Shown piece by piece: positions 17,034 through 24,431 of a stretch of DNA of 35,846 bases (its first letter is position 1; each line of letters begins with the position of its first letter). Source of the DNA: Lachnospiraceae bacterium (GTDB lineage Bacteria > Bacillota > Clostridia > Lachnospirales > Lachnospiraceae). The stretch spans positions 1 through 35,846 of the forward strand of contig JAFXXN010000184.1 of the NCBI GenBank assembly GCA_017542245.1, read 5' to 3'. Made by a program: the position numbers and the translations under genes. The notes under the pieces are model-generated. The model saw nothing but the letters and a program-made list of their open reading frames with translations, ran no database searches and had not been told where the DNA came from.

Positions 17034-17062
17034 TTGACAAGGATTTCAAAAAGGAATATTAT
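17034..17062 (+). promoter_or_regulatory. Predicted pyrG promoter
   Basis: TTGACA at 17034-17039 and TATTAT at 17057-17062, spacing 17 bp, predict a start near 17069, only about 11 nt before the leader hairpin. Confidence 0.8.
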
Positions 17063-17079
17063 ACTTAAATGTGAAGAAG

Positions 17080-17127
17080 CAAAGGCGTTTCGGATTTATA
17101 CCCGAAGTGCCTTTGTCTTTTTATATT
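17080..17127 (+). promoter_or_regulatory. pyrG leader terminator hairpin (family A)
   Basis: CAAAGGCGTTTCGG at 17080-17093 pairs with 17102-17115 (14 bp, two G-U pairs), followed by TCTTTTTATATTTG. It is an intrinsic-terminator structure within about 60 nt of the predicted transcription start and about 60 nt before the pyrG ATG, so transcription of pyrG must pass it. The 5' arm resembles the gltD leader arm. It does not show the GGGCTC start sequence of the B. subtilis pyrG CTP-sensing leader. Confidence 0.75.
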
Positions 17128-17184
17128 TGTTATAAGACGTATTGTTTATCTGTTTAATTTCTGCTCCTGAAAGGAAGGTAAAAT

Positions 17185-18795
17185 ATGACAAAATACATAT
17201 TCGTAACCGGTGGAGTTGTTTCCGGTCTCGGGAAAGGTATAACTGCAGCATCTTTAGGTAGACTTTTAAAGACGAGAGGGCTGAAGGTTGCGGCTCAAAA
17301 GCTTGACCCTTATATTAATGTGGATCCGGGAACCATGAGCCCATATCAGCATGGGGAAGTATACGTTACGGAAGACGGAGCTGAAACCGATCTTGATCTT
17401 GGTCACTATGAGCGTTTTATAGATGAGGATCTTAATAAATATTCAAACCTTACTACAGGTAAGGTTTATTGGAATGTCCTGAATAAGGAAAGACGCGGAG
17501 AATACCTTGGATCAACTGTTCAGGTAATACCGCATATAACAAATGAGATAAAAGAATTTATATACAGTGTCGGAAAGAAAACCGCTTCCGATGTGGTTAT
17601 TACTGAAATCGGAGGAACCATAGGTGATATAGAATCCCAGCCCTTTATAGAAGCTGTCCGTCAGATTTCTTTGGAAGTAGGGCGTCAAAACAGCCTGTTT
17701 ATCCATGTAACTTTGGTACCGTTTCTTCATGGTTCGGATGAACACAAATCGAAGCCAACCCAGCATTCAGTGAAGGAACTTCAGGGTATGGGAGTTAATC
17801 CTAATATAATTGTCTTAAGATGTGATGAACCGCTTGAGGAATCAATATTTAAAAAGATTGCTCTGTTCTGCAATGTAAGAGAAGACTGCGTAATAGAAAA
17901 CATAACGCTTCCATGCCTGTATGAGGCACCTCTTATGCTTGAAAAATCAGGATTTTCAGAAGTAGTCTGCCGTGAACTTGGCCTTGAAACCCCTGAGCCG
18001 GATTTAAAAGAATGGGAACAGATGGTAGAAAGTATCAAGCAGCGTAAACTCAATGTAAATATAGGACTCGTAGGAAAATATGTCCATCTTCATGATGCAT
18101 ATCTTTCTGTTGCGGAAGCATTAAGGCATGCAGGTTATTATCATAATACCCATATAACAATTAACTGGATAGATTCTGAGGAGATAACCGCAGAAAATGC
18201 TACAGAAAAACTGTCGGATTTGGATGGTATCATCATACCCGGAGGCTTTGGAAACCGTGGCATAGAAGGTATGATTATTGCCGCAGGATATGCTCGTGAG
18301 AATAACATACCATATTTTGGAATATGTCTCGGAATGCAGATAATGGTTATTGATTATGCAAGAAATGTTGCAGGTATCAGTGACGCAAATTCCGGTGAAT
18401 TTGACGAGAATTGCAAGAATAAAGTAATAGATTTTATGCCTGGACAGAATGATGAGATCAATAAGGGCGGAACTCTTAGGCTCGGTGCATATCCATGCGA
18501 GATAAAAGCAGGCACGAAGATGGAACAGTGCTATGGCGGGCTTAATATCAGAGAACGGCACAGGCATCGTTATGAGCTGAATAATGATTATCGTGAAATA
18601 CTAGAAAAGAACGGGCTTACACTTTCAGGAATATCTCCCGACGGTAAGCTGGTCGAAACGGTTGAGCTGACTGAACGGGCATTCCATGTCGGTGTTCAAT
18701 ATCATCCCGAATTTAAGAGCAGACCCAATAAACCGCATCCTCTTTTCAAAGGATTTATCGGGGCAGCACTGACACAGAAAGGTATCAGTAAGTAA
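17185..18795 (+). CDS. pyrG: CTP synthase
   Basis: This 536-residue enzyme makes CTP from UTP, ATP and glutamine. The N-terminal synthetase domain (about 1-270) has [40 protein letters not shown] and [17 protein letters not shown]. The C-terminal class I amidotransferase domain has [12 protein letters not shown], the nucleophile Cys in [10 protein letters not shown], and the His/Glu pair in [18 protein letters not shown] precedes the ATG. glmS follows after 53 nt with no promoter or terminator visible, so the two are probably co-transcribed. Expression is likely gated by the leader hairpin upstream. Confidence 0.98.
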
Positions 18796-18848
18796 TTGAC
18801 TACAGAAAAATGATAAAAAGCTGATAAAAATGAAGGAAGGTAAAGACA

Positions 18849-22920: not shown

Positions 22921-22935
22921 TAAAGAGGTTCAGCC

Positions 22936-24324
22936 ATGAGCTTGCATGAAGAATGTGGAGTATTTGGAATATACTCCGAGAAAAAAACGGATGTGGCTTC
23001 TCTGTCATATTACGGACTTTATGCCTTACAGCACAGAGGGCAGGAAAGCTGCGGTATCGTTGTTAATGAGGATAGAGAATTTTATTCGCATAAGGATTTA
23101 GGACTTGTAAGTGAAGTTTTTTCTCAGAAAATTTTGGAAAGTTTGCCACACGGAAATATGGCGGTATCACATGTAAGATATGCTACAACAGGAGCGGTAA
23201 GCCGAATAAACTGTCAGCCTATCGAAGTCAATCACAGGAAAGGCAGGATGGCAGTTGCTCATAACGGGAATCTTTCAAATGCCGCAAAGCTCCGGGAGGC
23301 TCTTGAATTAAAAGGAGCTATTTTTCATACAACAAGTGATACTGAAACCATAGCTTATATAATAACCAGAGAACGTTTGACTTCCGCTTCGATTGAGGAA
23401 GCAATTGAAAAAGCTATGGATTACCTTGAAGGCGCGTATTCCCTGATTATAATGTCACCTCAAAAACTTATATGTGTAAGAGATCCGCACGGATTTCGTC
23501 CTTTATGTTACGGACGTACGGCTGACGGAGCATATATTGCAGCCTCGGAATCGTGTGCACTGCATGCGGTCGGAGCTGAATTTATAAGGGATATTGAACC
23601 GGGTGAGATTCTTGTATTCGGGAATGAAGGAATTAAATCTATTAAAACTCATGTAAATACTGCGGAAAGAAATTTCTGTGTTTTTGAATATATTTATTTT
23701 TCACGCCCGGATTCAGTGATAGACGGCATTTCGGTTCATGCCTCAAGAGTAAGAGCCGGCGAGATACTTGCAGAGGAATATCCGGTTGAAGCCGATACTG
23801 TAATAGGTGCACCTGATTCAGGATTGGACGGAGCTCTCGGGTTTTCCAGAAAATCAGGAATACCGTACGGACTAGGTTTTATAAAGAATAAATATATAGG
23901 GAGAACCTTTATTTCACCCACAAAGTCAGCCAGAGTTGACGGCGTGAGGATAAAACTTGCCGCACTTGAGGAAGAAGTAAGAGGAAAACGTGTTGTTCTG
24001 ATTGATGATTCTATAGTACGCGGAACAACTATGGAAAGAGTTGTAAGGCTTCTGAGAGAAGCCGGTGCAAAAGAAGTTCATGTCAGGATATCATCACCTC
24101 CGTTCCTGCATCCCTGCTTTTACGGAACTGATGTAGCTTCAGAAGAAAATCTTGTGGCTGCAAGACACACGGTTGATCAGATATGCGATATCATCGGAGC
24201 CGATTCTTTAGGATTTTTCCCTAAAAACAGATTGGGAGAATTAACCGGTGGAAAGGGATATTGTAGTGCCTGCTTTGATGGGCGGTATCCCACTTCAGTT
24301 CCCTATGGTATAACCGAGAAATGA
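22936..24324 (+). CDS. purF: Amidophosphoribosyltransferase
   Basis: This 462-residue enzyme transfers the glutamine amide to PRPP, the committed step of purine synthesis. A six-residue propeptide MSLHEE precedes the nucleophile Cys7 (ECGVFGIYS); class II glutaminase motifs are LQHRGQESCGI, SHVRYATTG and VAHNGNLSN. The phosphoribosyltransferase half has the PRPP loop VVLIDDSIVRGTT. Cysteines in ERNFCVFEY, LHPCFYG and GYCSACFDGRYP match the 4Fe-4S ligands of the Bacillus-type enzyme. Other pur genes are not adjacent; it sits alone among glutamine genes, between amt and gltD, with its own promoter and leader. Confidence 0.96.
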   Translation: MSLHEECGVFGIYSEKKTDVASLSYYGLYALQHRGQESCGIVVNEDREFYSHKDLGLVSEVFSQKILESLPHGNMAVSHVRYATTGAVSRINCQPIEVNHRKGRMAVAHNGNLSNAAKLREALELKGAIFHTTSDTETIAYIITRERLTSASIEEAIEKAMDYLEGAYSLIIMSPQKLICVRDPHGFRPLCYGRTADGAYIAASESCALHAVGAEFIRDIEPGEILVFGNEGIKSIKTHVNTAERNFCVFEYIYFSRPDSVIDGISVHASRVRAGEILAEEYPVEADTVIGAPDSGLDGALGFSRKSGIPYGLGFIKNKYIGRTFISPTKSARVDGVRIKLAALEEEVRGKRVVLIDDSIVRGTTMERVVRLLREAGAKEVHVRISSPPFLHPCFYGTDVASEENLVAARHTVDQICDIIGADSLGFFPKNRLGELTGGKGYCSACFDGRYPTSVPYGITEK

Positions 24325-24342
24325 ATATTTTTAATTTTTTTC

Positions 24343-24370
24343 TTGACATTTATTAAATTTGGAGTATACT
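24343..24370 (+). promoter_or_regulatory. Predicted gltD-gltB promoter
   Basis: TTGACA at 24343-24348 and TATACT at 24365-24370, spacing 16 bp, directly follow the purF stop in AT-rich DNA. The predicted start is near 24377. Confidence 0.75.
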
Positions 24371-24391
24371 GTTGTATAAATTGAATGAGGC

Positions 24392-24431
24392 AAAGGTGTC
24401 TCGGAATAATTCCGAGGCACCTTTTCTTTTT
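24392..24431 (+). promoter_or_regulatory. gltD leader terminator hairpin (family A)
   Basis: AAAGGTGTCTCGGA at 24392-24405 pairs with 24411-24424 (14 bp, one G-U pair) across ATAAT, followed by TCTTTTTCTG. This is a textbook terminator about 15 nt from the predicted start and about 90 nt before the gltD ATG. Confidence 0.8.

Follow-up and report, generated by a model that had tools for sequence, protein, structure and literature searches.

The RNA targets of ANTAR proteins are defined by a hexaloop whose first nucleotide is A and whose fourth is G (PMC3369931; PMC8934654). In the EutV/EutW system of the Enterococcus faecalis eut operon, such a hexaloop excludes a terminator and several leaders make up one regulon; each leader carries two hexaloops joined by a limited linker, and the ANTAR protein has a phosphorylated receiver (PMC3369931; PMC8934654). 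The minimal motif for binding is one hexaloop; EutX carries an additional lone hexaloop, and some Mycobacterium tuberculosis ANTAR targets deviate from the dual form (PMC8934654). In Clostridium saccharobutylicum, NitR is described as capable of antitermination and is reported to induce the glutamine synthetase (GS) and glutamate synthase (GOGAT) genes upon nitrogen limitation (PMC6316151, citing Stutz 2007). Here we describe the leaders of pyrG, amt, purF and gltD in a 35,846-nucleotide stretch of DNA (the window), which is one whole contig (JAFXXN010000184.1; C59) of a Lachnospiraceae draft genome (GCA_017542245.1; 4.72 Mb, 97% complete). Like the EutV/EutW targets, they form a group of leaders in which an A1/G4 hexaloop is predicted to exclude a terminator, and an ANTAR protein is encoded in the genome; unlike them, they have one hexaloop at the 5' end, and the protein has no phospho-accepting aspartate. 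With a probability of roughly 0.8, we interpret these leaders as transcription attenuators that are read, through a single hexaloop each, by a NitR-like ANTAR protein encoded behind glnA.

Promoters (scored out of 12 consensus letters) and terminator-like sites were scanned across window positions 15500-26500. The four top promoter matches are those of pyrG, amt, purF and gltD, and the four largest terminator-like sites directly follow them (Table 1). Each of the four leaders folds better than 200 of 200 dinucleotide shuffles. A preliminary description of this DNA had placed a near-consensus promoter and a terminator at the 5' end of these four messages, and all four units hold up. Its common AAAGGYG core is present in pyrG and gltD, which follow the GCAANGGNG pattern, whereas the amt and purF leaders have ACAAGGGCG in its place; of the U-rich tracts that it reported, the one in purF is weak (UAUAUAUUU). 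The set itself is larger than the four units originally proposed. The pattern TTGAC-N-spacer-TANNNT-N6-30-GCAANGGNG matches seven times in the draft genome (once when reversed), and six of the seven matches precede pyrG, gltD, glnA, glnN, carA and gdhA. As judged from sequence, the regulon in this genome is therefore at least eight units (pyrG, amt, purF, gltD, glnA, glnN, carA and gdhA), and the earlier notion of a nitrogen and glutamine gene set controlled after initiation is supported.

The added units lie at C68:15918 (glnA), C95:2584 (glnN), C95:4977 (carA) and C149:5789 (gdhA). The glnA product matches TIGR00653 at E 2.5e-100 but below its cut-off, and both GS domains are recognized by Pfam. 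The glnN product is a GSIII-type glutamine synthetase with the GS C-terminal domain PF18318 (a relative, L109, has GSIII_N), and its leader consists of two modules in tandem. Among these four, the leader fold is weakest relative to shuffles for glnA, where 1 of 200 shuffles was equally good. Under strict tests, amt and purF reach a stem score of only 1 owing to a mismatch, and purF, carA and glnN fail the U-tract test. An earlier, noisier pattern listed 16 matches (4 for the reversed control), seven of them before true units, and missed purF. Relaxing both promoter hexamers gave 25 matches against 17 for the reversed control. Nine of these are known units; the remaining 16 were rejected as new units, none having a stem longer than 3 bp.

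A second small hairpin can form around CAANGGNG in each of the eight leaders. In six of them a stem of 5-7 bp carries an AANGGN loop, which has A1 and G4: UGAGC[AAAGGC]GUUCA in glnA, GAAGC[AAAGGC]GUUUC in carA, UAAAGGC[AAAGGG]GUCUUUG in glnN, CAAAGGC[AAUGGG]GUCUUUG in gdhA, and the pyrG and gltD hairpins of Table 1. Because the hexaloop and its 3' arm are also the 5' arm of the terminator in all eight leaders, the two predicted folds are mutually exclusive. By RNAfold, the six good 22-mers have energies of -3.8 to -7.4 kcal/mol and the eight leaders -18.3 to -28.4 kcal/mol; the terminator is thus far more stable, and a binder would be needed for the hexaloop hairpin to persist. The amt leader also contains a second hexaloop, AGGC[AAAGGC]GUCU (20927..20940, + strand), followed by a long hairpin that lacks a clear U run (20923-20971).

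The hexaloop lies very close to the promoter. In 112 of 116 elements the loop lies no more than 18 nt past the -10 box (median 14). Transcription usually starts 6-8 nt after the -10 box, and with a start there the hairpin would lie at about +1 to +5. The upstream counterpart that defines the dual form, a second hexaloop (P1) followed by a short linker (Ramesh 2012), was not found as a feature of these elements: P1-like hexaloops with a stem of at least 4 bp occur in the 54 nt upstream of 4 of 116 elements, compared to 5.7 ± 2.5 expected from shuffles. Given the closeness of the loop to the -10 box and the lack of P1 above chance, the leaders look like single, 5'-terminal hexaloops.

A single ANTAR gene was found in the draft genome (PF03861, E 7e-14), directly behind glnA. 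This linkage is general: glnA stands immediately upstream of the gene for NitR, as we call the protein, in 79 of 80 named loci (in the remaining one NitR lies at the contig end), as well as in each of the 26 loci that could be parsed among 31 others. The nitR gene of C. saccharobutylicum likewise adjoins a glutamine synthetase gene. Among solved structures, the NitR profile matches EutV, the putative antiterminator 1s8n, the nitrate regulatory protein 4akk and AmiR. EutV contacts RNA through K149, E160, M172, Tyr164, R142, K143 and K147 (PMC8934654), and with a numbering offset of 2 relative to the solved chain, as deduced here, the equivalents of K149, E160 and M172 are K, E and M in 24 of 24 NitR sequences. 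In none of the 24 does the phospho-acceptor column hold Asp (G in 20, A in 2, N in 1, S in 1); in the NitR of this genome we read Asn at that position, and its Response_reg match is weak (20.7 bits against a cut-off of 30.2).

We then compared relatives. For the family, 100 exact-TTGACA matches were fetched among the matches listed for 120 genomes; in 59 of them a U tract follows the loop at a distance of 8-50 nt, and 42 of these 59 also have an unbroken stem of at least 4 bp. Best hits place 41 of the 59 before relatives of the regulon proteins of this genome: glnN (18), amt (6), PurF-type amidotransferases (6), glnA (5), gltB (4) and pyrG (2). Two of the six amidotransferases are PurF at 50-53% identity, and four match at 29-34% (one, in L183, is asparagine synthase B by NCBIfam). 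Among the remaining 18, family searches pointed to asparagine synthase, NAD synthase, purC, brnQ, an amino-acid-binding protein, argD and GSIII (L109), and 11 of the 18 genes are unrelated or without assignment. Sixty stretches picked by hand from the order's other families yielded 69 elements, 57 with a U tract and 46 with both a U tract and a stem of at least 4 bp. Relatives of the regulon proteins follow 57 of the 69, namely glnN (15), glnA (15), amt (12), amidotransferases (11, at 23-35% identity), gdhA (3) and pyrG (1). In L322-L329 and L331, promoters stand in divergent pairs separated by about 60-210 bp; every promoter has its own element, and glnN or amt lies on one side and glnA or an amidotransferase gene on the other.

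The hexaloop stem covaries across these elements. We assembled 137 distinct sequences (144 in all: the eight of this genome, 59 from the family, 57 from the order and 20 glnA leaders of NitR loci), of which 106 have an unbroken stem of at least 4 bp. At stem positions 2-6, a mean of 3.79 out of 5 are paired, compared to 3.06 ± 0.07 after the 3' arms were redealt; none of 5000 shuffles reached 3.79, and none did when shuffling was confined to gene class. At position 4, for example, the pairs are A-U 53 times, G-C 37 and C-G 12. When the partner is shifted by one, pairing falls at positions 3-5 and hardly changes at position 6. Taken singly, glnN is significant (0 of 5000) and amt moderate (23 of 5000). 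The 41 family matches that lack a U tract show no significant pairing excess (124 of 2000). For the loop we used the 80 named loci gathered via NitR, a check free of circularity in which only A1 and G4 of the loop were imposed, alongside a promoter, a closing C-G, the stem and a U tract. All 17 loops found were AARGGY; requiring G at position 1 instead gave 6, and requiring C or T gave 0 each. No A1 element is present in the glnA leaders from those NitR loci that are closest to the query, which are of the Hungatella, Lacrimispora and Enterocloster types. Six of the 80 (L211, L218, L219, L224, L235 and L256) have similar promoter spacing and a hairpin whose loop starts GAGG (G1), and some others carry neither an A1 nor a G1 loop.

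The element also tracks the ANTAR gene across genomes, although the counts that follow are of pattern matches and not of verified elements. In an order sample of 196 genomes, 132 of them with an ANTAR gene, a stricter pattern gave 132 matches in 85 genomes (7 for the reversed pattern, as we read the counts). It occurs in 83 of 132 genomes with an ANTAR gene versus 2 of 64 without (Fisher 1e-17), and outside the query's own family in 66 of 110 versus 2 of 64. In a class sample that excluded genomes already used, the counts are 80 of 134 versus 15 of 144, two of the ANTAR-positive assignments falling below the family cut-off. Within the family itself, an ANTAR match occurs in 105 of 120 genomes, with two matches in three of these. 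The expectations of the preliminary description are partly borne out by these comparisons: similar elements stand before nitrogen genes in relatives, by patterns and stem statistics, and the hairpins covary and are not placed at random genes. It had also argued that the leader ahead of the hairpin seems too short to hold a riboswitch aptamer or the two hairpins of an ANTAR target, which agrees with the loop positions given above. Its dismissal of an ANTAR target stands for the dual form and falls for the core, which itself can form an ANTAR-type hexaloop in a genome with an ANTAR gene behind glnA. A protein that binds the nascent hairpin, its suggested effector, is favored by the hexaloop signature and by the distribution of matches.

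Taken together, the hexaloop core, the ANTAR gene behind glnA and the matches that track ANTAR genes suggest that the effector is probably a NitR-like ANTAR protein. RNA polymerase would start at the strong promoter, and the first 15-25 nt of the message could fold into the AANGGN hexaloop hairpin. Left unbound, the hexaloop and its 3' arm would be taken up as the 5' arm of the more stable intrinsic terminator, ending the message at a predicted 50-60 nt or so. Active NitR would instead bind the hexaloop as it emerges from the polymerase, keep the hairpin folded and block the terminator, so that the ammonium and glutamine genes are read. The leaders would work like ANTAR antiterminators without being classical dual-hexaloop targets, as the dual feature is missing. 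Since the receiver-like domain of NitR lacks the phospho-accepting Asp, its signal is more likely a partner protein. In the AmiC-AmiR and NasS-NasT systems, it is a partner protein, and not phosphorylation, that controls the ANTAR protein. For NitR this role would fall to glutamine synthetase, the strongest candidate being GS that holds NitR when loaded with glutamine. This proposal draws on the glnA-NitR linkage, the missing phosphorylation site and the contact between GS and TnrA in Bacillus subtilis, where GS holds this nitrogen regulator under nitrogen-rich conditions (PMC6316151). TnrA binds DNA, whereas NitR here would bind nascent RNA. The direction of control, activation under nitrogen limitation, is suggested by the behavior of NitR in C. 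saccharobutylicum. One guess is that a joint rise of PyrG, PurF, CarA and AsnB with the assimilation genes holds flux when glutamine is scarce.

A number of observations weigh against this interpretation. EutV needs both hexaloops, as deletion of P1 abolished induction (PMC3369931), and a lone hexaloop may not work as the EutV pair does. The Tyr164 column of EutV is His in 24 of 24 NitR sequences, and R142, K143 and K147 correspond to variable columns (R in 3, K in 2 and K in 2 of 24). In amt and purF the hexaloop forms only with one A.C mismatch beside the closing pair, and for their 22-mers RNAfold picks a different small hairpin. The patterns that gathered most elements fix the loop letters; only 17-21 of the 80 glnA leaders of named NitR loci show the element, depending on criterion, and covariation is not significant when glnA leaders are taken by themselves (690 of 5000 shuffles). 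Shared ancestry means that the Fisher values overstate independence, and the draft genome carries 8.6% contamination. Furthermore, 17 genomes without an ANTAR gene have pattern matches (2 in the order sample, 15 in the class sample). One such draft (L371) has a convincing full glnN element; in 3 of 3 other sampled genomes of its genus the ANTAR gene is present, and its absence from drafts with matches may reflect their incompleteness. The 15 ANTAR-less genomes of the family hold 15 matches: L201, whose U tract lies 41 nt on, passes the U-tract test as well as the stem test (4), and two more, L198 and L200, have the stem only.

Some of these points would also suit attenuators whose GCAAAGGCGUC strand is read by another RNA-binding protein or a trans-acting RNA. 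The case for NitR binding is made from sequence, several EutV contact residues are not kept, and some genomes with matches have no ANTAR gene. We nevertheless consider such a reader unlikely, as the stem covaries while the loop keeps a purine at position 1 and G4, as in ANTAR targets, the matches track ANTAR genes, and an ANTAR gene sits behind glnA. Described ANTAR terminator leaders use two hexaloops (PMC3369931; PMC8934654), which would favor a classical dual switch in which a longer message from an upstream start carries P1. P1-like hexaloops are not enriched upstream, however, where the stretch is mostly the promoter itself at near-fixed spacing and where, in the case of pyrG, the next gene is divergently oriented; a dual switch is accordingly a shade less likely still.

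Operators are often located just downstream of the transcription start, and an inverted repeat in that place could be a repressor's DNA operator or an ordinary strong 5' hairpin acting on mRNA stability, with no antitermination. Neither would be expected to show covariation of a stem that excludes the terminator, or U tracts as frequent as those of the fetched elements (59 of 100 and 57 of 69), which makes this explanation very improbable. The least credible alternative is a small riboswitch sensing glutamine or a nucleotide, or start-site slippage. Many of the targets use glutamine, and slippage acts at pyrG in Bacillus. The leaders have no Rfam match at gathering scores, though, and only sub-threshold hits at E up to 5 (the one overlapping the pyrG leader is a greA leader at 23.9 bits against a cut-off of 60, E 1.7); few nucleotides precede the hairpin from the assumed start, and there is no G run among them.

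Table 1. Features of the pyrG-gltB region, in window coordinates (z, leader fold relative to dinucleotide shuffles).
Feature	Position	Strand	Remarks
pyrG-glmS promoter	17034..17062	+	TTGACA-17-TATTAT, 11/12 consensus
pyrG antiterminator hexaloop hairpin (predicted)	17076..17091	+	GAAGC[AAAGGC]GUUUC; loop 17081-17086
pyrG leader terminator	17079..17126	+	stem 17079-17116 (15 pairs), then U tract; hexaloop and its 3' arm common to both folds; z -8.0
pyrG, CTP synthase (glutamine-hydrolysing)	17185..18795	+	NCBIfam TIGR00337
glmS, glutamine-fructose-6-phosphate transaminase	18849..20666	+	NCBIfam TIGR01135
amt promoter	20814..20842	+	TTGACA-17-TATAAT, 12/12 consensus
amt antiterminator hairpin (predicted)	20851..20870	+	loop AAGGGC 20858-20863; closing C-G, A.C mismatch, 5 pairs
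amt leader terminator 1	20861..20899	+	stem 20861-20886 (11 pairs), U-rich tract; z -6.8
amt and PII (glnK) genes, two overlapping ORFs	21059..22815	+	
purF promoter	22838..22866	+	TTGACA-17-TAAAAT, 11/12 consensus
purF antiterminator hairpin (predicted)	22875..22894	+	loop AAGGGC 22882-22887; A.C mismatch as in amt
purF leader terminator	22882..22921	+	stem 22882-22912 (14 pairs), weak U-rich tract; z -4.7
purF, amidophosphoribosyltransferase	22936..24324	+	NCBIfam TIGR01134
gltDB promoter	24343..24370	+	TTGACA-16-TATACT, 11/12 consensus
gltD antiterminator hairpin (predicted)	24386..24403	+	UGAGGC[AAAGGU]GUCUCG; loop 24392-24397; RNAfold also pairs A1-U6
gltD leader terminator	24392..24433	+	stem 24392-24424 (15 pairs), U tract; z -5.7
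gltD, glutamate synthase small subunit	24516..26027	+	NCBIfam TIGR01317
gltB, glutamate synthase large subunit	26076..30659	+	NCBIfam NF008730

In the draft sequence the Amt reading frame breaks near 22150, and the second open reading frame (ORF) holds PII together with the C-terminus of Amt; amt is open across the corresponding part in 4 of 4 fetched relatives inspected. Elsewhere in the window, a Clostridiales-1 RNA (RF01699, 112 bits) lies at 4769-4931, upstream of the ribosomal protein L6 gene. Two similar 41-bp stretches (30991-31031 and 34321-34361) with the common core GGATTATTATATATTAGGAAGGCAAAAA, the like of which 0 of 100 shuffles gave, stand before an FtsX/ABC operon and before genes preceding a DUF4367 gene.

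By its description, C. saccharobutylicum NitR, an ANTAR protein connected with the genes for glutamine synthetase and GOGAT, is the closest likeness to the protein proposed here; the consulted portion of that account mentions neither a single 5'-terminal hexaloop nor pyrG, purF, carA, amt, asnB or gdhA as targets (PMC6316151). Among the open-access papers searched, we found no description of a single-hexaloop ANTAR leader in these bacteria. Compared to the ANTAR leaders described so far, the predicted novelties are the missing first hexaloop, a hairpin at about +1 and a receiver-like domain that lacks the phospho-accepting Asp and whose gene adjoins that of GS. The role of single hexaloops was left open in the consulted text of the 2022 structure paper (PMC8934654), and about a hundred natural single-hexaloop leaders, together with a likely protein and a physiologically sensible gene set, make that question directly testable. 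We give even odds to the broader proposition that one hexaloop at the message start suffices for ANTAR antitermination and that, across Clostridia, a phosphorylation-free NitR signalled by glutamine synthetase is a general control of nitrogen assimilation, through which the synthesis of CTP, purines, carbamoyl phosphate and asparagine is likewise tied to the supply of glutamine. A regulon of this kind can be assembled from modules of about 100 bp that bear promoter, hexaloop and terminator, and the leaders described here provide a candidate general nitrogen control, with a list of targets, for the Lachnospiraceae and other Clostridia.

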